A stretch of 37,161 bases of DNA from IMG/VR virus record IMGVR_UViG_3300041402_001383, positions 1 through 37,161 of that record, one strand, 5' to 3'. This stretch comes from a virus. Each line of letters starts with the position of its first letter. Within the stretch, counting starts at the first letter, position 1. The position numbers and the translations under genes are program-made. The notes beneath the pieces were generated by a model. That model made no database searches. It saw nothing but the letters and a program-made list of their open reading frames with translations, and was not told the origin of the DNA. Below are positions 5,894-36,043 of the stretch, one piece after another.

Positions 5894-6724
5894 CTACATT
5901 TCGTTTATATGAGCCAATATCTCAAACGCCAATCGATGGGCTCTGAACCCCTGATTATACCATTTGCAACCATCGTTTATGAAGTTTACGAGCTCATCGT
6001 TCAGTGTGTCGTTTGTTTTCTCCAGGAGATTTAGGCGAATCACTTCTTCGGCGTTTATCAAATCGAATTGAGCCATCTTAGTCCCAGTTACTCGCTCCGC
6101 CACAAACGTCGCATCCTTGCCGTCGAGAAAATGAACATTTGCGGTAGCTGCATCGTTGATTCCATTCTTCGTCGAACTCAGAGACTTCGCTTCTATCCGG
6201 GAGGTCGGGGCTGTGATCAAACCCATCACCAAATCAAGGTCGTGAATCATCAGGTCTAAAACCACATCAGCCTCCGGACGTGAATAACCGGTGCCGTTAC
6301 TTCTGTAAACATTAATCGAATCGATCGAATATCCCGCTTGTTGAGCGTCGACATATACGCTATTGAACCGTTCCAGATATCCGACGTATAGGTTAGCCTC
6401 GTACTTTTCGGCGATCATTAAGAGGATATTCGCATCTCCCAGGTTCTGCGTCATCGGCTTCTCTACCAGGACGTTGCAGCCGGCCTCCAGGAAGAACTTG
6501 GTCATTTTGAAGTGATCTTCGTCCGGTGTCACTATGCTCACGTAATCCGCGTCTGCCGCCTTTCGATAATCGTCGATAAATCGACAATTGAACTTCTTCG
6601 CAACTTCAGCAGCCCTGGATCGGTTGCAATCAACCACGGTTAGATCGACTTCCTTCATTGCTGCGTACTTCTCGGCATGGAAGGCCCCGAATGTGCCTAC
6701 TCCTATGACAGCGACTTTCTTCAT
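5894..6724 (-). CDS. Gfo/Idh/MocA-family NAD(P)-dependent oxidoreductase
   Basis: A 276-residue protein. A Rossmann fold starts with GVGTFGAFH (residues 8-16), an acidic residue ends the second strand, EKP is at 88-90, and the catalytic region reads DLMIHDLDLV (about 157-166). These are hallmarks of Gfo/Idh/MocA enzymes, many of which oxidise the sugar ring of a nucleotide sugar. It is somewhat shorter than typical relatives (often 310-350 residues), so the C-terminal sheet may be reduced. With the DegT-type aminotransferase at 10528-11640 it resembles 3-oxidation/3-amination pairs such as GnnA/GnnB or WlbA/WlbE. The start has a GGGAG site. Substrate is not determinable. Repeat arrays flank it, consistent with a cargo gene. 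Confidence 0.85.
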   Translation of the reverse strand: MKKVAVIGVGTFGAFHAEKYAAMKEVDLTVVDCNRSRAAEVAKKFNCRFIDDYRKAADADYVSIVTPDEDHFKMTKFFLEAGCNVLVEKPMTQNLGDANILLMIAEKYEANLYVGYLERFNSVYVDAQQAGYSIDSINVYRSNGTGYSRPEADVVLDLMIHDLDLVMGLITAPTSRIEAKSLSSTKNGINDAATANVHFLDGKDATFVAERVTGTKMAQFDLINAEEVIRLNLLEKTNDTLNDELVNFINDGCKWYNQGFRAHRLAFEILAHINEM

Positions 6725-7080
6725 CTAAATCTCCCGTAGTCCGGTATAACCTGGTTCAACCCATCGAAAACGGACGGTGGTTTCGGGTGGAATGGGTACC
6801 ACCCAGAACAACCCACTTTAGCCGGCTCGTATATCCGGGTATCCTGGGTACTACCCATAACAACCCAGTTTAGCCGATCGGTCATTCTGCGTATCTTGCG
6901 TAGTACCCGAAATACCCTCAATAACGCATCGAGAACGGAGGGTAGTTTTGGGTGGAATGGGTACCACCCGGAACAACGGCGATTGGCGATCGGTTGTTTG
7001 GGGGTAATCTGGGTGGTACCCGTTAAACTGAGTGTTGTTTCGAACAGACTGTAGTTTCGAACGGACTGTAGTTTCATCGC
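6725..7080 (-). repeat. Operator-like repeat region upstream of the oxidoreductase gene
   Basis: No gene is supported. Two 48-bp direct repeats (6765-6812 and 6930-6977, five mismatches) each contain GGGTGGAATGGGTACCACCC, an inverted repeat. A weaker version (TGGGTACTACCCA) is at about 6844-6856 and GGGTGGTACCC at about 7011-7021. At the far end two copies of a GACTGTAGTTTC motif occur at about 7045-7075. Dense short palindromes upstream of a gene suggest repressor binding sites or a control region for the gene ending at 5894. An open frame across the repeats gives a repeated GCSGWYPFHPK peptide but has no good evidence of translation. Confidence 0.6.
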
Positions 7081-10317: not shown

Positions 10318-10553
10318 TTTTGAGTCTCCTGTTTCTTCTTCAATATAGCCAAGTATTTGTCGCGCTCTTTTGACACCGGATTGTCTGTTTTGAAGGTACC
10401 ACGAAAGCACCTGGGACATAGTATAATAGCACCGATCGCTACCATTTCGCGGTGAGTATCAAAGCATTCATCGCAGTGTTGATTGTAATAAACGCGGATT
10501 GGAGGACCAAAGGTGGAAAACTCTTTTTCAAGATCGTGCGTCTTCTTCGACAT
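10314..10553 (-). CDS. Small zinc-ribbon protein
   Basis: A 79-residue protein with CDEC (about residues 28-31) and CPRC (about 46-49), a two-knuckle zinc ribbon, followed by a basic helical tail. The start at 10553 follows an AGGAGT site that lies in the end of the upstream aminotransferase gene (26-base overlap). It ends in an ATGA overlap with the next gene. Function unknown; it is part of the tightly coupled leftward operon. Confidence 0.65.
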   Translation of the reverse strand: MSKKTHDLEKEFSTFGPPIRVYYNQHCDECFDTHREMVAIGAIILCPRCFRGTFKTDNPVSKERDKYLAILKKKQETQK

Positions 10554-11640
10554 TATTTAGCACTCCTATTATGTTGTTCGTTTCCCTCTCCGACATGTAC
10601 GGGTTTAAAGGTATCTGCAATATACGATTACAAAGTTCCTGAGTTACGTCCGTTCGAAAGTCCTCATCTACGTCGATTACAAACATTTCCAATTCGTGAA
10701 GCGGCTGCGGATAGTAGATCTCACTTGGATACCCTGCTCTTGTCAAAGCTTGTTGAACGAAGTCGCGACTCACGCAATTGCATAAAATGGAAAACACTGC
10801 CCAATTACTGAATCCGGGTGATAGTTGAAAAGCGTACGCGTCTTTATCTAAGTACTCACGATACTTGTGAGCCACGTGTTTTCGGATGTTCACGCTCTCT
10901 TCGAAATCGGTAAACTTTTCGAGTAGGATAGCTGCTGTCATTGTATCCATTCTAAAGTTGTATCCCATTACATAAGCATAATTGTCGCCCCTCAAGCAGT
11001 GGTTTCTCAGGGATCGCACCGCATCGCTCATTTCAACATCGTCACAAAACACCATACCGCCGTCACCGAACGCACCGAGCGGTTTAGTCGGATAAAATGA
11101 GGTGAACGCGTAATCGCCAAAACTCAACGCTTCCTTATGTTCCAATGTAGAACCTAACGAATGGCATCCGTCCTCAATGACCGGGATGCCGAACTTGTCG
11201 GAGATCTGGTTTATTGAATACTCATCGTAAATAACGCCAAACAGATCTACGGGGACGATTGCCTTCACAGCCCCCTCTGGTTGTTTGCTGATTTCCAGAA
11301 GCAGATGGGCTGCCGACATTGTAAAGGTATCAGGGTCAACTTCGATGAAAAGCGGTGTGGCGCCTGTCATTAGAACGGTGGTGGCTGTTGACAAGAAGGT
11401 GAAATCGGGTACTGCCACGACATCACCAGGGCCGATGCCTAACCCTCTCATAATGAGGAACTGAGCTGCTGTTCCGGAAGATACGGCGATTGCATATTTC
11501 CGACCAACGTATTCAGCCAACATGGTTTCAAGCTTTCGAACCTCTTCGCCAAGTATGAAGTCCCTGCGTTCCATTACAGTTCGTACAGCTACATGGCAGC
11601 CAGATATCGGTTGCCGTTCGATTGCATAAATTGATCTCAT
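10528..11640 (-). CDS. DegT/DnrJ/EryC1/StrS-family PLP-dependent sugar aminotransferase
   Basis: A 370-residue enzyme of aspartate aminotransferase fold. The PLP lysine is K186 in SFYPTKPLGAFGDGG, with the cofactor-contacting EDGCHSLG at 156-163 and an SSGTAA phosphate-binding region at 54-59. This family transaminates keto-sugars of nucleotide sugars. The start at 11640 is chosen because GGAGG precedes it and it overlaps the upstream stop as ATGA; an upstream ATG at 11706 lacks this. With the Gfo/Idh oxidoreductase it would make an aminated sugar nucleotide, perhaps for virion, DNA or host surface modification. The two genes are separated by the terminase genes, which is unusual. Confidence 0.88.
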   Translation of the reverse strand: MRSIYAIERQPISGCHVAVRTVMERRDFILGEEVRKLETMLAEYVGRKYAIAVSSGTAAQFLIMRGLGIGPGDVVAVPDFTFLSTATTVLMTGATPLFIEVDPDTFTMSAAHLLLEISKQPEGAVKAIVPVDLFGVIYDEYSINQISDKFGIPVIEDGCHSLGSTLEHKEALSFGDYAFTSFYPTKPLGAFGDGGMVFCDDVEMSDAVRSLRNHCLRGDNYAYVMGYNFRMDTMTAAILLEKFTDFEESVNIRKHVAHKYREYLDKDAYAFQLSPGFSNWAVFSILCNCVSRDFVQQALTRAGYPSEIYYPQPLHELEMFVIDVDEDFRTDVTQELCNRILQIPLNPYMSERETNNIIGVLNNVEEDARS

Positions 11641-11822
11641 TCTTTGTCCTCCGGTTTCCAGGGTATAAACGGTTTGAAGCGAATAACGGAAATGCCGTTG
11701 ACGCAAATCCAGACTCTTCCGTCGTCTGCAACTTGGAACCCGAATTCGCCTTTCAACATTCCGGCTCTCATATCTTCCTCAACGCTGATATAACCTGACT
11801 GGGTGGTTTGTGGATATTCCAC
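11637..11822 (-). CDS. Small hypothetical protein (GTG start)
   Basis: A 61-residue protein beginning at a GTG (11822-11820) with an AGGAGG site five bases upstream. The sequence (LKGEFGFQVADDGRVWICVNGISVIRFKPF, in two parts) looks like a compact beta-rich domain. No family recognised. Its stop overlaps the aminotransferase start, so the two are co-translated. Confidence 0.6.
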   Translation of the reverse strand: MEYPQTTQSGYISVEEDMRAGMLKGEFGFQVADDGRVWICVNGISVIRFKPFIPWKPEDKE

Positions 11823-14784: not shown

Positions 14785-15006
14785 ATGAAAGAATGTATAA
14801 AATGGGACGAAGAGGATAGCAAGTTTGATGAGCTTGACGAAATGTCAGACAAGCTCCGGGCCCTGCGAGACCGGGTAGAGGTGATGGGGTTAAAGCGGAA
14901 CCCGAAATGGGATTCGCTCGATTCAGGCAAGGAAGAACCGCACATCCTGGATTTGTTTGATGAGCTTGTTTCAACGATCGAAAATGAATTCGATGAAGCA
15001 GCGTAG
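14785..15006 (+). CDS. Small acidic protein, paralogue of the 15123-15332 gene
   Basis: A 73-residue acidic, helical protein with a GGGAG site. It shares its layout with the gene at 15123: KW near the start, a central MGLK, then K-x-D, ILD and a closing I-x-NE-x-x-E-x-A. The pair look like tandem duplicates, each followed directly by a pistol ribozyme. Its TAG stop (15004-15006) overlaps the first bases of the ribozyme. Function unknown. Confidence 0.6.
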   Translation: MKECIKWDEEDSKFDELDEMSDKLRALRDRVEVMGLKRNPKWDSLDSGKEEPHILDLFDELVSTIENEFDEAA

Positions 15007-15083
15007 TCGTCTGAGCGACGTTAAACAGTGTCATTAGGCTCAGAGCGGTATCCGGGTTGTTGTGAACGCCCGGATACGTTGAC
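15005..15083 (+). ncRNA. Pistol self-cleaving ribozyme, copy A
   Basis: Stem P1 GTCG (15006-15009)/CGAC (15016-15019) encloses loop TCTGAG (15010-15015), which pairs perfectly with CTCAGA (15039-15044) as the class-defining pseudoknot. The linker TTAAACAG is next, then GTCA (15030-15033), which pairs with TGAC (15080-15083). The conserved GCGG (15045-15048) precedes stem TATCCGGG/CCCGGATA (15049-15056/15069-15076). The expected cut is the G-U step 15078/15079, 44 nt before the next start codon. This matches the known pistol layout element by element. Confidence 0.9.
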
Positions 15084-15122
15084 TTTAATTGAACGTTAAC
15101 TTATAAATTGGAGGGATAAAAA

Positions 15123-15332
15123 ATGAACGAAACGACAAAATGGAATGACAAAAAAGTTGAGAGGTTGGCGGACCTTTTGTCCGGGGTTGAAAGCACCATT
15201 GATGAGTTGAAAAAAATGGGGTTGAAGTTCAGCGAGAAGTTCGATGGTAGCGATATGGACGAAGCGAACATCCTGGATTGCTTAACCGGAGCAGTTGACA
15301 AAATTTATAACGAGTTGGAAGAAGGGGCGTAG
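15123..15332 (+). CDS. Small acidic protein, paralogue of the 14785-15006 gene
   Basis: A 69-residue helical acidic protein with a GGAGG site. It aligns by eye with the 14785 gene over its whole length (KW, MGLK, ILD, NELEEGA end), so gene plus ribozyme may have duplicated as a unit. The TAG stop (15330-15332) overlaps the start of ribozyme copy B. Function unknown. Confidence 0.6.
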   Translation: MNETTKWNDKKVERLADLLSGVESTIDELKKMGLKFSEKFDGSDMDEANILDCLTGAVDKIYNELEEGA

Positions 15333-15402
15333 TCGTTCGAGCGACTTTAAATAGGCCTTAGGCTCGAAGCGGTACCTGGGTGGTAGCACCCGGGTACATG
15401 GC
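15331..15402 (+). ncRNA. Pistol self-cleaving ribozyme, copy B
   Basis: P1 is AGTCG (15331-15335)/CGACT (15342-15346). Loop TTCGAG (15336-15341) pairs with CTCGAA (15363-15368), followed by conserved GCGG (15369-15372). The third stem is TACCTGGG/CCCGGGTA (15373-15380/15389-15396) and the closing helix is GCC (15355-15357)/GGC (15400-15402). The linker TTAAATAG matches the canonical pistol sequence. The scissile position here is A-U (15398/15399) instead of the usual G-U, so activity needs testing. The cut would lie 56 nt before the next start. Confidence 0.88.
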
Positions 15403-15454
15403 AAGTGCGAAAGACAAAAATAATTGTAGAACTTCAAACATGGGAGGAACTAAA

Positions 15455-16033
15455 ATGGAGCTATTTATTGGAGCGTTAAAGCACGTAGTTGTCGTAGATG
15501 GCGTTGAGTTGGCTGCATTTCGAGAGCTCGGCGAAGCTCGCCAGTATGAAGAGATGGTCGAGAAGACGGGCACGCAGCCGGAATTGATTAAAATTATGAC
15601 AGCGAAGGATTTCAAAGAGCAGTTCGTCGAAGAACCGCTACTTAAGAAGGACGAAGAATTCGAAAAGGTCGCAGATGCTATTTCTGCGCTTGAGAACTGT
15701 TTGGAGATTATGGGCGATCTCGGGTTCACGCCGCAGACCGAAATAGCGACCCAGGGCGACGAGCTGCTATCAAACCTCTACCGTCTAACCGAAATAGCGG
15801 CGGAAGACATGGAAATGTTCAAATTGAAATCGGTCTTGTTAGTGTTGGTTCGGCGCCAGTATGGGGCCAAGAACATCGGGTATGCAGCGAACAAACAATC
15901 GTGGGACGAATGCTTCACCATCTTCGAAGGCAAATTGTTCCTATGGTTTAATGATTTAACCGGAACCACAAAAGCAGAATCAATCAAATTGACTGGAGGT
16001 GATTATAGTGGCACGACAAAATCTGCGTCGTAA
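15455..16033 (+). CDS. Hypothetical protein
   Basis: A 192-residue protein. The ATG at 15455 has GGGAGG; an in-frame upstream ATG at 15380 lies in the ribozyme and is rejected. It begins MELFIGALKHVVVVDGVELA, then is mostly helical and acidic. No known domain is recognised. Its last 26 bases overlap the start of the next gene. Confidence 0.6.
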   Translation: MELFIGALKHVVVVDGVELAAFRELGEARQYEEMVEKTGTQPELIKIMTAKDFKEQFVEEPLLKKDEEFEKVADAISALENCLEIMGDLGFTPQTEIATQGDELLSNLYRLTEIAAEDMEMFKLKSVLLVLVRRQYGAKNIGYAANKQSWDECFTIFEGKLFLWFNDLTGTTKAESIKLTGGDYSGTTKSAS

Positions 16034-16199
16034 GACAATAACGAAAGAAATCCTGGAAGCGATGGAACCGAATCTTTACGATGGAGACTGCGTCCAATGG
16101 ATGAGGGTTGAAAAAGCACTAAGCAAGTTTAACATGGAAGAGCTCGGTGCCATGTGGTGTTTGGTTACAAACGTTCGTCGTCCGAGCGACGTAAAATAG
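16008..16199 (+). CDS. Small basic hypothetical protein (GTG start)
   Basis: A 63-residue protein. The GTG at 16008 is eight bases after GGAGG, which itself overlaps an earlier in-frame GTG (15999), so 16008 is preferred. The N-terminus is basic (ARQNLRRKTITKE), and the rest is helical. The last eight codons lie inside ribozyme copy C, so the protein end (NVRRPSDVK) and the RNA fold share sequence. Function unknown. Confidence 0.55.
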   Translation: MARQNLRRKTITKEILEAMEPNLYDGDCVQWMRVEKALSKFNMEELGAMWCLVTNVRRPSDVK

Positions 16200-16249
16200 G
16201 TCATTAAGCTCGGAGCGGCCGGCTTGACTACGGTCAAGTCGGCATTGGC
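16176..16249 (+). ncRNA. Pistol self-cleaving ribozyme, copy C
   Basis: P1 is CGTCG (16176-16180)/CGACG (16187-16191). Loop TCCGAG (16181-16186) pairs with CTCGGA (16209-16214), followed by GCGG (16215-16218). The third stem is an 11-bp helix (16218-16228/16233-16243, one G-U) capped by TACG. GTCA (16200-16203) pairs with TGGC (16246-16249). The scissile step is A-U (16244/16245), 39 nt before the next start. The 5' half overlaps the end of a coding region. Confidence 0.88.
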
Positions 16250-16283
16250 AACAATTTATTAACTATCATATAGGAGGATAATT

Positions 16284-16817
16284 ATGCCACGAGTAACTCA
16301 TGTGAAAAAAGCTCGCAAGGACAATCCGGCCGTAAAGAAGGGTGAACCGTACTATTGGTGGGCCTTCCAGTTCGCAGGGAAGCGGTATTCGAAAACCTAT
16401 CCTAAACGGTCCCAGTTGACGCAAAGTTCGTTTTTGAGCACTTTGTGGGACATGGAAGACGGTATGCACGATAGGTTCAAGGGTTGTGCCGATCAAGGCG
16501 ATTTCGAATCCGCTCGGGATGATTTGGTTAGCGAAATTACCGAACTTGCCGACGAAACGCAGGGAAGCCTTGACAACATGCCGGACCAGTTACAAGAAGC
16601 AGATACCGGCCAGATGCTCCAGGAAAGAATCGAAGCTCTGGAAGGATGGGCCAACGAATTGGAAGGCGTTGATTGCACCATTGACATTGACGACGAAGAT
16701 GAAGAGGGGCCTGCGGATGCCGATGAAGAACTGGATGAGAACGATCCGGACCAAGAGTTAAAGGATCGGATCGAAGAAATTTGCAACGAACTTACGTCAT
16801 ACACAGCCGAAGTATAG
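16284..16817 (+). CDS. Phage hypothetical protein with acidic helical tail
   Basis: A 177-residue protein with an AGGAGG site. The N-terminal ~55 residues are basic and aromatic (PRVTHVKKARKDN, then YYWWAFQFAGKRYSKTYPKRSQ), a pattern I recognise from unassigned phage proteins. The remainder is strongly acidic and probably coiled coil. It may bind nucleic acid with the N-terminus, but that is inferred only from charge. Confidence 0.6.
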   Translation: MPRVTHVKKARKDNPAVKKGEPYYWWAFQFAGKRYSKTYPKRSQLTQSSFLSTLWDMEDGMHDRFKGCADQGDFESARDDLVSEITELADETQGSLDNMPDQLQEADTGQMLQERIEALEGWANELEGVDCTIDIDDEDEEGPADADEELDENDPDQELKDRIEEICNELTSYTAEV

Positions 16818-16829
16818 GAGGAACGAATT

Positions 16830-17426
16830 ATGAATTGCAAACAATTTTGTACGTTAGAACTTTCTGCCCAAAGAGACCGTTTAAATAAAATTCCCGATCT
16901 CAAAGTGAAGCTGAAAGGGATGTATATTGATCCGCCTTCAAAGGGAGCAGGGAAGGAAAAGTATTTTTTCGTTAGGTTGAAAGACTCGACGGTACTGTGG
17001 GAAGGCTACACCTGTTGTGCTTACAGTGCCCGAAGCAAGGCAATCGAGCGACTAATTGAAAAGCATAAAGTGGAGGTTATGGAAATCAATAAAATGTTCA
17101 ATATTAACCACCTTCTCAAGAGGGGCGGCAGGGTAAGACGGCACGAAATGAAATCTAATCGGTATGATATTATTTTCGGCGACACCGTAATTGGGTACAG
17201 CGTACGGGTTGGCCACGGTTTTGAAATCCAAGTTGTTGTAACAGCCAACAAATACGTGTACCACGAATGCAAGTTGACGCCGCAAATCGAAACTTTCTTC
17301 CGGGAGCTCGGAGACCTTGCGTTCGAAGCGAATGAAGAGAGGTGCAAGTTGGCTCGGATCTCAGCCGGCAAGGTATTTGATCACGATCAGTTAAATGAGT
17401 TACACGATTTGATTGGAGGCGACTGA
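16830..17426 (+). CDS. Hypothetical protein
   Basis: A 198-residue, slightly basic protein with GGAGG upstream. Segments KYFFVRLKDSTVLWEGY and SVRVGHGFEIQVVVTANKYV suggest alternating strands. No family is recognised. Its TGA overlaps the next ATG (TGATG), so the two genes are coupled. Confidence 0.6.
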   Translation: MNCKQFCTLELSAQRDRLNKIPDLKVKLKGMYIDPPSKGAGKEKYFFVRLKDSTVLWEGYTCCAYSARSKAIERLIEKHKVEVMEINKMFNINHLLKRGGRVRRHEMKSNRYDIIFGDTVIGYSVRVGHGFEIQVVVTANKYVYHECKLTPQIETFFRELGDLAFEANEERCKLARISAGKVFDHDQLNELHDLIGGD

Positions 17427-17599
17427 TGGACCTCATATCAACCTGGTGTAGCAAGTGCGAGAGCTATACCGAACAAGAAATTCTGGTAGATGTACCGGTC
17501 GATATTCCACCAGGCGAACATCATTGCGAAACAAAGTGTTCGGTATGCGGTGATATATCGGATTTTACAAACGTTGGTCCTCTGAGGGACGATAAATAG
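17426..17599 (+). CDS. Small zinc-ribbon protein overlapping a ribozyme
   Basis: A 57-residue protein from the ATG at 17426. WCSKC near the start and CETKCSVCG in the second half give five cysteines suited to one zinc ribbon. GGAGG lies seven bases upstream. The final codons (NVGPLRDDK, stop TAG at 17597-17599) overlap ribozyme copy D, as in the 16008 gene, whose end (NVRRPSDVK) is similar because of the shared RNA sequence. Function unknown. Confidence 0.6.
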   Translation: MDLISTWCSKCESYTEQEILVDVPVDIPPGEHHCETKCSVCGDISDFTNVGPLRDDK

Positions 17600-17644
17600 T
17601 GCCGTTAAGCTCAGAGCGGCTGCCCGGAAACGGGCAGCGTCGGC
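17577..17644 (+). ncRNA. Pistol self-cleaving ribozyme, copy D
   Basis: P1 is GTCC (17577-17580)/GGAC (17587-17590), a compensatory change from GTCG/CGAC in the other copies. Loop TCTGAG (17581-17586) pairs with CTCAGA (17610-17615), followed by GCGG (17616-17619). The third stem is GCTGCCCG/CGGGCAGC (17619-17626/17631-17638) with a GAAA loop. GCCG (17601-17604) pairs with CGGC (17641-17644), again compensatory. The expected G-U cut is at 17639/17640, 34 nt before the next start codon. Confidence 0.9.
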
Positions 17645-17673: not shown

Positions 17674-17934
17674 TTGAAACGTAAAGGAATGAAGAAGCCT
17701 AAGCGAACAGCAATTAAGCAGCCTAAACGAACGGCAATCAAGTATGGCCGGAACCACTTGGGTATCCGGATGTTTGAATGTTTCGGGCGTTGGCATGGTC
17801 GCGAGTTAACGCCGAAAGAGACGATGATTGCGAAGAAGCGTAGGCGTAAATACCTGTTAAGGTACGGTAAAAAACTGGACCTTAGAAAACAAACCTTATC
17901 ACAGGAGGACAAAGAATGCCTTGCTATCAAGTAA
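17674..17934 (+). CDS. Small basic protein with internal repeat (TTG start)
   Basis: An 86-residue, very basic protein. The TTG at 17674 is seven bases after GGGAGG; the frame is open further upstream into the ribozyme, which is rejected as a start. It carries a tandem PKRTAIKQPKRTAIK repeat and a later Arg/Lys-rich helix. Likely nucleic-acid binding from charge alone. It overlaps the next gene by 19 bases. Confidence 0.55.
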   Translation: MKRKGMKKPKRTAIKQPKRTAIKYGRNHLGIRMFECFGRWHGRELTPKETMIAKKRRRKYLLRYGKKLDLRKQTLSQEDKECLAIK

Positions 17935-29691: not shown

Positions 29692-30145
29692 ACAAAACGT
29701 GCTCTCGATTAAGGACGTAAACCTCGGCGTTAACGTAAAACGTAAACGACGTCAAAACACGTCAGCATCGAGTACACGTTTTAGAAAAGTAAGTAACTAC
29801 AATGACGGCGTTTTTTGTCGACAACGGGATTGAAAAGTCGAGAAAAAACGGCAAAAAGTACATCGTGTACTCGATTAACTACGTAAACCTCGGCGTTAAC
29901 GTTTTACGTAAACGACCGAGAAACACGGCAGCATCGAGTACACGTTTTAGAAAAGTAAATAACTACAATTACGGCGTTTTTTGACGTCAACGGGATTGAA
30001 AAGACGGCAAAAACACGAAAGTAAAACGTGTACTCGATTAAGTACGTAAAACACGGCGTTTACGTAAAACGTTAACGCCGACAAAACACGGCAGCATCGA
30101 GTACACGTTTTAGAAACGTAATAAACGCCGACAAACACGTAGTTG
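29692..30145 (+). repeat. Array of three palindromic repeat units before the DpdA-like gene
   Basis: Three tandem units in the orientation of the right arm: arms 29694-29709/29767-29782 (two mismatches), 29864-29875/29933-29944 (perfect) and 30023-30038/30096-30111 (perfect, inner GGCGTT 30055-30060/AACGCC 30074-30079). GGGATTGAAAAG boxes end the first two units (29826-29837 and 29991-30002). The DNA matches the arrays at 4.5-7.6 kb when those are read on the minus strand. There is no gene here; an open frame at 29802-29984 is an unlikely gene. Confidence 0.85.
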
Positions 30146-30175
30146 AGGACTAACAACAAAAAGGAAGGTAAACGT

Positions 30176-31609
30176 ATGCTCTCTTTTAATCCGCTCTTAT
30201 GGTATGCAGGTGATCGCGTTGATGTTGGGTATGATTTCGACAACGAAAAAAACTCGTTTGACGGGAACATGCGAGAGGTCGCAGCCTCTAAACAGTGTGG
30301 TTACGCGGCGTGGGATGACCCTATGTGTGACGGAATCCTGGTTTCCAGGACAATGCTTGAGGTTACGACAACTCTGAAGAAGAACGATGCAAACGTGTAT
30401 AAAATCAACACCTATCGAAACGTACATTACAACGTTTTGGAATACTGCCAAACCAAAGGTCTGTTTCTACCGACGTTAGCAGACCCGGGTACTTGGTCAT
30501 ACCACAACCTGTTTGAGCTACCAGAATACCTATACGATACCGAAGACCTAATTAACTACTACAACAACATGCAGTTCGACCTGGCAGGGAGCGTAGATTG
30601 GCCCATTATTGACCGGATAGTACAAGTTCAAGATGGGAAGCGTAAGTTCATCGATCTTGATTTCAAAACGAAAGAGCATCGGCGCCAACTCACCTTAGAA
30701 CTCGCAGCCGATTTCATTAAGAAGTGCAATAAACGGAAGAAGCTAAACTTCATGCCCTTCGGCACTATACAGGGGTACAGCCCTAAAACCTACCAGGAGT
30801 CGTTACGAGCCATTCTGAAAATGGGATATGAATACATCGCGATAGGTGGTCTCCCTGCATACTCAGAGAAGCACGTAGTTGAGCTGCTTCCGATGATATT
30901 GAAAGAAGTTCAAAAAGTCGGGTATGAAGGCGGTATGCACCTATACGGCAGGTTTCCAAGCCCACGGTATGTTGCTTATTACATGGAACATCATGTTTCT
31001 TCGTTCGACAATAATAGCTCCCACATCGCAGCCTGCGTCAGTCCTTGTTCTTACTACGACCCGGATTTCAAATTTCGCGAAGAGGTACCAACGTTTCGCT
31101 GCTACGGCATTAAAATACCACCATTGACAGGCCCTATGTTGGCGAGATTGAAACGGCGGGATTTCGAATTGTGGGAAAAGGTGTCTAAACTGTGTACTGA
31201 CACGTTCCACCTGTTCTGCAACTTCTCAAACTCCGGGAAGAATTCGGATCTCGAAGTTTTTCTCAGAAGCTACAAAAAAATGGATAAGGTTTTAAACACT
31301 GCCAGAATTAACCCGAAGTCCAATTCCTTTTTAAGCGACAGCTTGGAACGCTGCAAAACCGCTCTAAAACTAAAAGGATGGGAACGCTGTGGCTGTACGG
31401 CCTGCCGGAAAGCCAAGGCTCACATAATGATGGTACGCGGACACCGTATCAGATACCTGTTTAACCATAACACCCACGTTCAGTATGTACGCTATCAGCG
31501 CGAATTGAAAAAGGCTAAAAAAATTGTAGACTATCCTCAATACGATTGGTCAAAAATCCGCGAAATTAACCGCTTAAAAAATATCCGAAAAGCTATAAAG
31601 AGGAGGTAA
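30176..31609 (+). CDS. dpdA: DpdA-like tRNA-guanine transglycosylase-fold protein
   Basis: A 477-residue protein. TIM-barrel features of the TGT family include SVDWPIIDR, FMPFGTIQGYSP and the zinc site CGCTAC with a downstream histidine (near residues 404-420). DpdA proteins replace guanine in DNA with 7-deazaguanine derivatives, protecting phage DNA from host nucleases. No preQ0 synthesis genes occur in the window, so the base may come from the host or from genes outside. The start M at 30176 has GGAAGG. It follows a palindromic repeat array. It could instead act on RNA. Confidence 0.7.
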   Translation: MLSFNPLLWYAGDRVDVGYDFDNEKNSFDGNMREVAASKQCGYAAWDDPMCDGILVSRTMLEVTTTLKKNDANVYKINTYRNVHYNVLEYCQTKGLFLPTLADPGTWSYHNLFELPEYLYDTEDLINYYNNMQFDLAGSVDWPIIDRIVQVQDGKRKFIDLDFKTKEHRRQLTLELAADFIKKCNKRKKLNFMPFGTIQGYSPKTYQESLRAILKMGYEYIAIGGLPAYSEKHVVELLPMILKEVQKVGYEGGMHLYGRFPSPRYVAYYMEHHVSSFDNNSSHIAACVSPCSYYDPDFKFREEVPTFRCYGIKIPPLTGPMLARLKRRDFELWEKVSKLCTDTFHLFCNFSNSGKNSDLEVFLRSYKKMDKVLNTARINPKSNSFLSDSLERCKTALKLKGWERCGCTACRKAKAHIMMVRGHRIRYLFNHNTHVQYVRYQRELKKAKKIVDYPQYDWSKIREINRLKNIRKAIKRR

Positions 31610-32228: not shown

Positions 32229-33122
32229 ATGGATTTAGGTTTTATTGTTCCGGTTAAACACCTGGAAAAGTACGCCTCACAATCGCGATATCACTTGGTA
32301 CTCGCTCACATGGTTGACCAGAACGAAGTTTATCGCAACTTCTACAGGCGATGTGCAGAGGACGGTGATTACCTGACTTTAGACAATTCATCTTTCGAAA
32401 TCGGCGACGGGGTTTACTCGCCTGAGCAGCTAATCGATTTCGCCCTTGACGTTGGAGCCACAGAAGTCATGGCTCCGGAGGTTTACTTAAAAGCCGAAGA
32501 AACCGTGAAGGCGGTGGAAGCCTTTATTGACGAGTTTAATGGATTCGATAAAGCGAACGAGCTGAAAATCTTCGCTACAATACATGGCAAATCGTGGCCG
32601 GCTGCCAAGTGGTGTTTTGAACGGTGTCTACGGGCCGGCGCAACAACCATCGGGCTCTCATGCAGGTTAGACTTCCCGTATCCAACATTCGAATTCCAGA
32701 ACCACTATAATGAAGCGTGGCGCCGATCGTTGGTACGAATGAACTTCGCAAGGAAGGTTTATCACAACCTTAAACCAAAACACCGGATTCATTTATTGGG
32801 TATGAACCACCCATACGAAATCTCGTTTTACCACGACATGCCACTGGTTAAGAGCAACGATTCGTCTGCCGCGTGGTTAAACGGTATTGAACTCAATCCG
32901 CTCGACATTTGCAATTACAGAAAACCGGAAGCCAAAATGGACTTCGACTGGGACGGTGTTTTGACAGAGGCCATGGAAGACATGGTGGATTACAACATTA
33001 ACTTTTTAATGGGAATTGTTAACTGGGAATTACACAATGATATTAAATCCGCAGAAGGCGATAGACAACGGGTGGATTTCGTTTCCGGAAAAAGCGATGA
33101 CTCCGGAGCAGCTACAACCTAA
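32229..33122 (+). CDS. Second TGT-fold DpdA-like protein
   Basis: A 297-residue single-domain TIM-barrel protein. YLTLDNSSFEIGDGVYSPEQ, EVMAPEVY, FATIHG, TIGLSCRLD and HLLGMNHPYEI are strand-end motifs of the short DpdA-type TGT relatives found in phages (the DNS/DSS region and LLG motif). It lacks the zinc site of tRNA-type TGT. With the larger DpdA-like protein at 30176 it may form a two-protein base-exchange system for DNA. AGAGGAGG precedes the start. Confidence 0.7.
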   Translation: MDLGFIVPVKHLEKYASQSRYHLVLAHMVDQNEVYRNFYRRCAEDGDYLTLDNSSFEIGDGVYSPEQLIDFALDVGATEVMAPEVYLKAEETVKAVEAFIDEFNGFDKANELKIFATIHGKSWPAAKWCFERCLRAGATTIGLSCRLDFPYPTFEFQNHYNEAWRRSLVRMNFARKVYHNLKPKHRIHLLGMNHPYEISFYHDMPLVKSNDSSAAWLNGIELNPLDICNYRKPEAKMDFDWDGVLTEAMEDMVDYNINFLMGIVNWELHNDIKSAEGDRQRVDFVSGKSDDSGAATT

Positions 33123-33543
33123 CGGCATTGACCTCCGTCTGAAAAAAGGTATCAAGCTCCCTATTCACAAGGCATTCAAGCTCCTACACGACGACACGCA
33201 ACACCTGGATTGGTATATCCCGGAAGGCTCATATTGTAAAGAATGCTTCTCAGTTCTCTTCGAACGTGGGAAGCCATATCTTATCGAAACCTTTGAGTAT
33301 GTAAAGATTCCTCCGAATGTTGTAGCTATAGTTTACGGCCGTAGCAGCCTCAACAGAAACGGCATTTTGGCAAGGTCGTCCCTTTATGATTCTGGTTTCG
33401 AAGATTACGTAGGGTTCACCCTTTATCCGTGGGTTCCGTTTGAAGCTCACATTGGTGTGCGTATAGCACAAATCGTTTTTTATTCAGCAGAATCAAGGGG
33501 TTTATATGCCGGCCAGTACGGTATTGAAAATAAACAAGTGTAA
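33037..33543 (+). CDS. dcd: dCTP deaminase/dUTPase-family protein
   Basis: A 168-residue protein from the ATG at 33037 (beginning MILNPQKAIDNGW), overlapping the previous gene by 86 bases. QPNGIDLRL, VYGRSSLNRNGI, and GVRIAQIVFY are the family motifs of dCTP deaminase and dUTPase. These enzymes supply dUMP or remove dUTP, feeding thymidylate synthesis. Deaminase versus dUTPase cannot be decided by eye. It precedes a UDG-polymerase fusion, which fits a common theme of uracil control. Confidence 0.75.
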   Translation: MILNPQKAIDNGWISFPEKAMTPEQLQPNGIDLRLKKGIKLPIHKAFKLLHDDTQHLDWYIPEGSYCKECFSVLFERGKPYLIETFEYVKIPPNVVAIVYGRSSLNRNGILARSSLYDSGFEDYVGFTLYPWVPFEAHIGVRIAQIVFYSAESRGLYAGQYGIENKQV

Positions 33544-36043
33544 TCGCTGCGAGTTTTGGCATGACAAGGATCGCGTACTAAACGGCTATGGCAATCCAAA
33601 CGCCGACATAATGGTACTTGGCGAGAGCCCAGGTAAACTCGAAGTTCATCCGGAATTAGAACATGAACCATTGATAGGCGAGACCGGTGCCGTGCTAAAC
33701 TGGGGTATGAGAGCAGCCGGCTTGATTACATATGGAAACCGGTACAAGAAAATCTTCTTCACCAACGCCCTCAAGTGCTATCCATCCGTAGGAGACGAGC
33801 TCCAAAAGACTGTTGACATTTCAACAAAGCACACAAAACTTTGCAAGGGTTGGCTGCATAAAGAATTCCAACGCGTCAAGCCAAAGTTCGTGTTGGTACT
33901 GGGTAAACATGCACTTCACCAGATGACCGGTAACTACTCGGCATCTATAGAGGACATGAGAGGGTTCTGGTATTGGTCGGACGAATTCAATTGTTGGTAT
34001 TATCCAACTAAGCATCCGGCCGTGATACTACGGAACTGGGGCGACACCTCCGCCTTTCTTCGCGATATGGAACGGTTTACAAACGGTGTAAAGAACGGCG
34101 TCCCGGAACAAAAGATCGGCAAACATTATAAGACGATAAAAACCATCGCCGGTGTAAAAGCCGTAATCAAACGTCTCAAGCGAACAAAGCGATTCGCATG
34201 GGATTTGGAAACTTCGTCGCTCAAGTCGTGGGACAAGAATGAAGAAATTCTTGGAATCTCGTTTGGTTGGAAGCCCGAATGGGCTGCGTATATACCACTT
34301 GTTAAGGAAGGACGAAAGAAAATATGGACGGCTAAACAGCGGCGTATTATCATACGGCTCGTTAAAAGCGTATTGGAAGACTCTGCTATAAAGAAGGATG
34401 GGCAGAACACCAAGTTTGACATCAACTGGATAAAGACAGAGGGCATCGATGTTAAGAACGTTAGTTGGGACACCATGCAATTTCATCATCTGGTTGACGA
34501 GAACACCCCTGCAAACCTCACCTATCTCACTACATACTACGATCTCGATTTTCCACGGTATGAAAACGAAATAAAACCATACATCAAAAAACGGGACGGA
34601 AAAAAGACCTACGAATTCATACCGGTGGAACTTCTGTCAAAGTACGCCTGTGCGGATGTGGATGCAGTATGCAGGATCGGTCGGCTACAACGAAAGTTCG
34701 CTACCAAAAGACAGCTCAAGGTTTACAGAAGAAACTCGGTTCCAATTTCCAAATTCACTTCGGTGATGGAACAAAAGGGTGTATTGATCGACGTTAGCCG
34801 GATCAAGGAAATGGAAGGCGAGTATCAGAAGAAGATTGATGCAGTTAATATAAAATTGTCGCGTTCGGTAAAACGTGACTACTTCAACGTTGCATCAAAT
34901 CCTCAGGTGCAGGCCGTATTGTTTGGCGACGAGCCCGGATGCCTAAAACTTCGAAGCAACAAAAAGACTAAAACCGGGAAATGGTCAACAGATAAAGATT
35001 CGTTCGAGTACATGAAGCGGAAGTATGCCCGTAAAAAACGAGTTATCACGGTTTTAAGCATGATTCAAGAGGTACGGCGGATGCGTAAGATGAAATCCAC
35101 GTATCTCACTGGGTTTATAAAGCTTGTTGATGAGCTCAATCGCATACACACATCATACCTATCCACCGGAACCGTGACTGGCCGACTTGCAAGTGAAGGT
35201 CCGAACCTGCAAAACATACCAAAAGACCCGATTTTCAGGTCCTTGTTCATTGCCGGCCCTGGACGAAAACTTATAGCTGCTGATTATTCGCAGATAGAAG
35301 CTCGGCTATTAGCATGGCTCGCTGTAGAACTCGACCTTATACAGCTTTTCGCGGACACGAATTTTGACCCTCACTACTATAACTCGTCTATTTTCCGTCA
35401 AAAGCCAATATCCGAAGTCACTAAAGAAGAAAGATCGATAGATAAAGCGGTGACTTTCGGCATTAACTACGGTAGGTCTGCAAAATCTATCGCAGATGAA
35501 TATGAATTGGATCTGGATTTCGTTAAAGGCCATATTGCACAGTTCTTCCAGACGTTTAGGAAAATCAAAGCGTGGCGGAACCGTCAAATCACGGTATCAA
35601 AAAAGCAGGGTTGGATCGAAAATAAATCCGGCAGGCGTCGACATTTCATGGCGTATGAATGGATTTACAGCGATGAGATGGAGGAGGTAAAGGACCGTAG
35701 GTACAAGGTTGACGAAGAGACCTGGTTAATCCAAGGCATCATCGGCAACATGGAAAGACAAGCAATCAACTTTCCAATTCAATCGTACGCGTGGGACCTG
35801 CTTACGCTATCTACTGACCGGGTTTTAAAGAGAATTAAAGATGAAGGTATAGACGCATACCTTGTACTCTCAGTACATGACATGATTGGAATTGATGTAG
35901 CGGATGAAGACGTTGACGTTGCACTAAAAATCTTAGACGAAGAAATGCCATTGAACTTTTCTAAAACCAGTAAAGTCACTGGTAAAGAAATATCAATGGA
36001 ATTCCCTATTGACAGGGAAGCAGAAAATTGTTGGACACAATAA
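33506..36043 (+). CDS. Uracil-DNA glycosylase-like domain fused to family A DNA polymerase
   Basis: An 845-residue replicative polymerase. Residues 1-~210 are Udg4-like: cysteines 12, 15, 91 and 113 could bind an iron-sulfur cluster, with GESPGKLE at 39-46 and HPAVILR near 171. A 3'-5' exonuclease starts at FAWDLETSSL (about 230). The polymerase has motif A DYSQIEARLL (about 591), motif B KAVTFGINYG (Phe at the sugar-selecting position) and motif C VHDMIGID (about 790). Fusion of a uracil reader to a phage polymerase suggests direct uracil handling during replication. It overlaps the dcd-like gene by 38 bases. Confidence 0.92.
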   Translation: MPASTVLKINKCNRCEFWHDKDRVLNGYGNPNADIMVLGESPGKLEVHPELEHEPLIGETGAVLNWGMRAAGLITYGNRYKKIFFTNALKCYPSVGDELQKTVDISTKHTKLCKGWLHKEFQRVKPKFVLVLGKHALHQMTGNYSASIEDMRGFWYWSDEFNCWYYPTKHPAVILRNWGDTSAFLRDMERFTNGVKNGVPEQKIGKHYKTIKTIAGVKAVIKRLKRTKRFAWDLETSSLKSWDKNEEILGISFGWKPEWAAYIPLVKEGRKKIWTAKQRRIIIRLVKSVLEDSAIKKDGQNTKFDINWIKTEGIDVKNVSWDTMQFHHLVDENTPANLTYLTTYYDLDFPRYENEIKPYIKKRDGKKTYEFIPVELLSKYACADVDAVCRIGRLQRKFATKRQLKVYRRNSVPISKFTSVMEQKGVLIDVSRIKEMEGEYQKKIDAVNIKLSRSVKRDYFNVASNPQVQAVLFGDEPGCLKLRSNKKTKTGKWSTDKDSFEYMKRKYARKKRVITVLSMIQEVRRMRKMKSTYLTGFIKLVDELNRIHTSYLSTGTVTGRLASEGPNLQNIPKDPIFRSLFIAGPGRKLIAADYSQIEARLLAWLAVELDLIQLFADTNFDPHYYNSSIFRQKPISEVTKEERSIDKAVTFGINYGRSAKSIADEYELDLDFVKGHIAQFFQTFRKIKAWRNRQITVSKKQGWIENKSGRRRHFMAYEWIYSDEMEEVKDRRYKVDEETWLIQGIIGNMERQAINFPIQSYAWDLLTLSTDRVLKRIKDEGIDAYLVLSVHDMIGIDVADEDVDVALKILDEEMPLNFSKTSKVTGKEISMEFPIDREAENCWTQ

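Follow-up and report, generated by a model that had tools for sequence, protein, structure and literature searches.

Four pistol ribozymes at gene boundaries of a phage operon

Several classes of self-cleaving ribozyme are known from phages. In prophages, arrays of hammerhead ribozymes flank single genes or short blocks of genes, and it was proposed that they process long phage RNAs into operon- or gene-length messenger RNAs (mRNAs); three of these arrays cleaved in vitro and one in E. coli (Perreault 2011, PMC3088659). The theta ribozymes of gut phages, which are similar to that of hepatitis delta virus, process RNA in Caudoviricetes and lie beside transfer RNAs (tRNAs; PMC10879173). Pistol ribozymes (RF02679) are associated with phage genes (Harris 2015, PMC4604425), and their biological role is not established in the literature searched. 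Here, we describe four pistol ribozymes, A to D, found in IMG/VR record IMGVR_UViG_3300041402_001383, a single complete virus record of 37,161 bases, the whole of which is called the window below. Very probably, as judged from the DNA, the four are active and split a single long phage transcript at gene boundaries.

As in the prophage arrays (PMC3088659), several ribozymes on one strand surround single genes or short blocks, even if the ribozyme class is different and cleavage is, for the window, predicted. The theta ribozymes (PMC10879173) share with these elements self-cleavage for RNA processing, again predicted in the window, but they lie beside tRNAs, whereas no tRNA gene was found in the window; tRNA processing was therefore rejected as a role. 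The described pistol class (PMC4604425) corresponds to the four elements in sequence and structure model, pseudoknot, catalytic residues, 2-nucleotide (nt) junction and association with phage genes. The window differs from it in having four copies in 2.6 kb, on or just past stop codons. No report of pistol arrays or of stop-codon placement was found in the literature searched, Weinberg 2015 lying outside it, and no priority is claimed. In principle, such an arrangement had already been described: the window holds the pistol counterpart of the phage hammerhead arrays, made up of new members of an established ribozyme family. The anchoring to stop codons is the one general regularity that goes beyond the known family and type of arrangement, and it deserves a proper test.

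By every computable test, the four elements are genuine pistol ribozymes. In a cmscan search of the window, RF02679 gives exactly four matches over its gathering score of 34.5 bits, all full length, on the plus strand and scoring 49.6-60.6 bits. A permissive Rfam search of the window, down to E<=5, revealed neither a fifth pistol nor any other ribozyme class, hammerhead included. The same four sites were recovered by a structural descriptor written without the Rfam model (P1 of 4 base pairs (bp), six-base loop, TTARG, pseudoknot partner, GCG), with no match on the opposite strand and a single one in 300 dinucleotide shuffles of the window. Hence, the four pistol copies proposed in the initial annotation, for which a search with the Rfam covariance model had been put forward as a check, are borne out by both approaches, and the coordinates given there agree with those of cmscan to within one base. 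The four ribozymes are as follows.

15005-15083, plus strand: pistol ribozyme A; RF02679 59.4 bits; P1 4/4, pseudoknot 6/6, P3 10 bp, P2 4 bp; predicted cut 15078^15079 (GU).
15331-15403, plus strand: pistol ribozyme B; RF02679 60.6 bits; P1 4/4, pseudoknot 6/6, P3 11 bp, P2 3 bp; predicted cut 15398^15399 (AU).
16176-16249, plus strand: pistol ribozyme C; RF02679 52.6 bits; P1 4/4, pseudoknot 6/6, P3 12 bp, P2 4 bp; predicted cut 16244^16245 (AU).
17576-17644, plus strand: pistol ribozyme D; RF02679 49.6 bits; P1 4/4, pseudoknot 6/6, P3 8 bp, P2 4 bp; predicted cut 17639^17640 (GU).

In all four copies, P1 has 4 bp, the pseudoknot is perfect over 6 bp, the linker bears AAA and P3 has 8-12 bp; P2 and the TTARG and GCG blocks are likewise present. 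Compensated changes are seen within the window in three helices. P1 is GTCG/CGAC in three copies and GTCC/GGAC in one. The pseudoknot is TCTGAG/CTCAGA in A and D, TTCGAG/CTCGAA in B and TCCGAG/CTCGGA in C. P2 is, from A to D, GTCA/TGAC, GCC/GGC, GTCA/TGGC and GCCG/CGGC. The structural descriptor thus returns the helices and paired changes of the initial annotation, the last helix of which is P2. The four cut positions proposed there also follow from the junction between the 3' strands of P3 and P2, which is 2 nt in every copy. In the pistol family, for which the published consensus gives ten highly conserved nucleotides, this junction is strictly 2 nt and a GU there is only modestly conserved (PMC4604425). 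A and D have GU as the scissile dinucleotide, whereas B and C have AU, a point absent from the initial annotation.

Covariation extends beyond the window. In 41 distinct P1/pseudoknot types, collected from phages and genomes, it is found at P1 pair 1 and at pseudoknot pairs 2, 3 and 5, the latter three being those left free by the pattern used for collecting sites; none of 2000 shuffles was as good. Because the Rfam model does not score the pseudoknot, this helix constitutes an independent test. Energy folding of single copies paired the pseudoknot strands in place of P1, since the program cannot draw pseudoknots, and this output was set aside as evidence. The equivalents of purine 32, G33, G40, C41 and G42 are kept in A to D through the TTARG and GCG blocks, the numbering being placed on what we take to be the env25 sequence. 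The roles of these active-site residues have been described, and their mutation impairs cleavage (PMC6154101).

The genes around the ribozymes, all on the same strand, are arranged as follows, those from the open reading frame (ORF) list being given with their length in amino acids (aa).

14785-15006, plus strand: 73-aa gene, paralogue of 15123-15332; the first bases of ribozyme A form part of its stop TAG (15004-15006); no match in Pfam or PHROGs.
15123-15332, plus strand: 69-aa gene, the sole gene between cuts A and B; ribosome-binding site and 44-nt leader past cut A; the first bases of ribozyme B form part of its stop TAG (15330-15332).
15455-16033, plus strand: 192-aa gene after cut B; 56-nt leader; no PHROGs match, one weak Pfam match under its cut-off.
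16011-16199, plus strand: 62-aa gene, an ORF from GTG 16011 behind GGAGGTGATTATA; its last codons and stop TAG (16197-16199) are inside ribozyme C (linker UAG, +23 from P1).
16284-16817, plus strand: 177-aa gene after cut C; 39-nt leader; PHROG 4068, of unknown function (E=2e-7).
16830-17426, plus strand: 198-aa gene from the ORF list, second in the C-D segment; no family match.
17426-17599, plus strand: 57-aa gene with paired Cys motifs; its last codons and stop TAG (17597-17599) are inside ribozyme D (linker UAG, +23 from P1).
17674-17934, plus strand: 86-aa gene with a 34-nt leader past cut D; it starts with TTG, preceded by GGGAGG.

The upstream stop codons therefore end at +1, +1, +23 and +23 of P1 for A, B, C and D, respectively. 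Before A and B, the last base of the stop (15006 and 15332) is the first base of P1. The genes upstream of C and D run into the ribozyme and stop at the linker UAG, so that the 5' part of the ribozyme also codes for the last protein residues. On the other side, start codons with ribosome-binding sites are found 44, 56, 39 and 34 nt past cuts A, B, C and D. One gene is enclosed between A and B, two between B and C, and three between C and D. The identity of the ribozymes, their intact structure and their placement at gene boundaries are established here. The small genes adjoining the ribozymes have almost no matches in Pfam or PHROGs. Genes in the same direction continue into an AAA ATPase, DUF3150, a UvsW-like helicase, a primase-helicase and PolA. 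The term "early genes" used in the initial annotation goes further than this: it is derived from the replication genes downstream on the same strand (AAA ATPase, UvsW-like helicase, primase-helicase and PolA).

From this arrangement we infer cleavage, separate mRNAs and a benefit to the phage. Each ribozyme would fold during transcription and cut between P3 and the 3' strand of P2, by a chemistry that is known, together with a rate near 10 per minute, from other pistols (PMC4604425). The upstream message would then end just past its stop codon, in a folded ribozyme carrying a 2',3'-cyclic phosphate. The downstream message would begin with a 5'-hydroxyl and a leader of 34-56 nt that includes the ribosome-binding site for the gene that follows. 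The predicted products are 320 nt for A-B (one gene), 846 nt for B-C (two genes) and 1395 nt for C-D (three genes). The likely benefit is that each small message would be stable and translated independently, having a structured 3' end and a 5'-hydroxyl that is poorly used by ribonucleases that sense a 5'-phosphate. Rejoining of the cut ends by a phage RNA-repair enzyme was rejected, none being present among the ORFs scanned with Pfam, which are part of all ORFs. The "staged mRNA processing" of the initial annotation is kept as far as mRNA processing goes, since this fits ribozymes placed between co-directional genes; "staged" has no support, because nothing was found that would time the four cuts differently. 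The window offers a compact natural test: the four copies have diverged, all lie at stop codons within the same operon, and their predicted products are of definite size.

Some observations weigh against cutting of one transcript by four active ribozymes. B and C have AU at the cut rather than the commoner GU, and P2 of B has only 3 bp; AU occurs at 9 of 68 resolved pistol sites elsewhere, and a P2 as short as that of B is also found elsewhere. Counts of promoter and terminator motifs between the genes are no higher than in shuffles, and promoters or terminators belonging to individual genes were accordingly rejected. Since no such signal is prominent here, we assume, from the direction of the genes and their close packing, that one transcript spans the region. 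Finally, across phages, the downstream start is a much weaker anchor than the upstream stop, as described below.

A pistol pattern yielded 109 viral contigs, and 80 records were searched with the Rfam model. One copy is present in 70 of them, two in 7, three in 1, four in 1 and five in 1; arrays are thus uncommon (10 of 80 pistol-bearing phage records with at least two copies), these counts being minimum figures, given that some records may be incomplete and that the pattern favours one pseudoknot type. Five pistols, one per one to three genes, are present in an unrelated phage record (L175), with the same order of stop, ribozyme, leader and start. More generally, the arrays of G008/L175 (five copies), G079/L083 (four) and G078/L082 (three) resemble that of the window by having one ribozyme per one to three genes, with a stop at the ribozyme start and a start codon about 25-40 nt past the cut. 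They differ by genes that are not seen in the window and, for L082 and L083, by copies that are near-identical to each other, whereas those of the window are 64-71% identical. In the AT-rich viral contigs L082, L083 and L052, a start lies 25-27 nt past each cut of the near-identical pistols, without a Shine-Dalgarno-like motif.

Placement was evaluated by looking for a same-strand ORF of at least 50 codons ending from -15 to +23 of P1, random positions of the same loci serving as control. In the discovery set, 56 of 75 viral sites have such a stop (75% vs. 10% at random), and so do 29 of 41 sites (71% vs. 10%) from viral loci fetched afterwards as an independent set; the trend is weaker in bacterial genome contigs, with 13 of 44 (30% vs. 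8%). Among 63 resolved phage sites, the stop is at -15 to +1 in 27 (chance 4%) and at +2 to +23 in 19 (chance 6%), although the DNA patterns used to collect sites bias such stop-codon statistics. The stops concentrate at -12 to +1 and at +9, +19 and +23. The latter three positions are the UGA, UAA and UAG of the ribozyme itself, where 32 of the 38 long ORFs entering the ribozyme end; this cluster has a partly mechanical origin, since an ORF that overlaps the motif will run into those stops. The cluster at -12 to +1 (45% and 37% of sites vs. 4%) is not mechanical. Pistol ribozymes of phages thus tend to sit on the stop codon of the upstream gene, which falls at their 5' edge or inside them. This placement rule holds in an independent phage set; where there had been a loose association with phage genes, it allows a testable statement on mRNA 3' ends.

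The same figures bear on an alternative role, in which the ribozymes would chiefly serve to form or shield the 3' end of the upstream mRNA, the freeing of the downstream gene being incidental. A stop is found from -15 to +23 at 73% of resolved phage sites, against 11% by chance, whereas an ATG 15-60 nt past the cut is found at 41%, against 21%; moreover, many single-copy pistols have no close downstream start. However, in the window and in the arrays of L175, L082 and L083, every ribozyme has a start within about 20-60 nt. A role chiefly at the 3' end has a fair probability but is less likely than not.

Cleavage could also be coupled to translation. A ribosome stopping at +23, as in C and D, would cover P1 and the linker and delay folding, so that translation of the upstream gene would set when or whether the cut occurs. 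The linker UAG is indeed the upstream stop in C and D, the long ORFs that enter phage pistols mostly end at one of the three conserved stops, and where all three triplets are present, all three frames are closed. Yet these stops belong to the conserved ribozyme sequence, and an overlapping ORF would end there with or without coupling. In addition, the stops of the genes upstream of A and B precede the ribozyme, and all three frames are closed at only 42 of about 158 sites. Such coupling is unlikely. In an extended form of the idea, pistols would be combined stop-and-cut elements, in which UGA (P1 loop), UAA and UAG (linker), in three frames, serve as stops of the upstream gene and translation is set against cutting; arrays would then release small-gene messages depending on translation of the preceding gene. 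We hold this extended form to be improbable.

The history of the copies raises the question of whether they bring any benefit at all. The genes preceding A and B are paralogues (34% protein identity, pairwise E=2e-9), which suggests that a gene and its ribozyme were duplicated together, both ribozymes being kept intact as the proteins diverged. About 12 bases immediately upstream of C and D (TTACAAACGTT and the following bases) are common to both, the host genes being unrelated, as if the ribozyme, together with a little flanking sequence, had been copied to the end of another gene, to judge from short matches. Both observations would fit a motif copied as a unit and spreading by duplication with neighbouring DNA, at no benefit to the phage. 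Such neutral copies would decay, however, whereas these keep all pairings and catalytic residues, with compensating changes, at 64-71% identity overall; in particular, retention of every pairing next to paralogues as distant as those of A and B argues that both ribozymes are under selection. Selfish or passive spread is accordingly quite improbable. As for hairpins that resemble pistols but have lost cleavage and serve only as 3' structures, AU at the cut of B and C and the 3-bp P2 of B might point to them, but a dead copy would let the active-site equivalents drift, which are present in all four copies and whose mutation impairs cleavage (PMC6154101), and we consider this explanation very improbable indeed.

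Active cutting at gene boundaries is thus the preferred explanation. Relatives of the window were also sought. A blastn search of phages with the ribozyme region gave no match, and no viral contig was found with the AAA ATPase as query. PolA gave one relative, at 44% identity, the record of which has no pistol but ends before the place where the ribozymes would lie, so that nothing follows from this lack. With PolA and terminase, tblastn returned many distant phages of different hosts.

Other phage pistols show variation in P3 and in their flanks. Nine of them (L016, L017, L021, L032, L038, L046, L063, L069 and L077) have a conserved three-way junction in P3 (GYGCTAR ... YTACWGTCTG ... GTCAGRCCRC) with 18 invariant columns and 8 pairs changed on both sides in 8 sequences. 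This junction is not modelled by Rfam, which misplaces the 3' half of the pistol there, and it has the look of an inserted domain, either peripheral or ligand-binding. Within P3 of a pistol on the minus strand of L034 (1684-1733) lies a tRNA-like cloverleaf of 82 nt, the T arm of which is perfect (GTGGGGTTCGATTCCCAC) but the anticodon loop only 4 nt long; it is not called as a tRNA by ARAGORN. More generally, the P3 domain reaches at least 50 nt in 44 of 109 phage pistols with a measurable P3 (L005-L084, L245-L292), far beyond the Rfam consensus hairpin, the longest ones being uncertain. A hairpin with an AAGG loop (CTGTGAAGGACACACAG or CGGAGAAGGTACTCCG) recurs directly 3' of the ribozyme in L034, L038, L050, L056, L063, L073, L077, L016, L020 and L021, followed in several records by TTTAGGTAAACAAAAAACCGC. 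In L011, L045 and L051, pistols lie a few hundred bases upstream of phage tRNA gene clusters on the same strand.

Elsewhere in the window, a 488-aa protein (30143-31609, plus strand) matches queuine tRNA-ribosyltransferase (PF01702, E=5e-7) and could, in a phage, be an enzyme similar to DpdA, which serves 7-deazaguanine modification of DNA. One 845-aa protein (33506-36043, plus strand) combines uracil-DNA glycosylase, 3'-5' exonuclease and family A polymerase domains and is accompanied by a dCTP deaminase-like gene (33016-33543). On the minus strand, a DegT/DnrJ-type sugar aminotransferase (10528-11706) is found amid structural and packaging genes, and the protein at 5894-6724 resembles, by eye, a Gfo/Idh oxidoreductase; together, they suggest that the phage may modify sugars. 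Finally, the translation of an ORF at 6721-7077 (minus strand) repeats the peptide CSGWYPFHPKxPSV and may correspond to a non-coding repeat.

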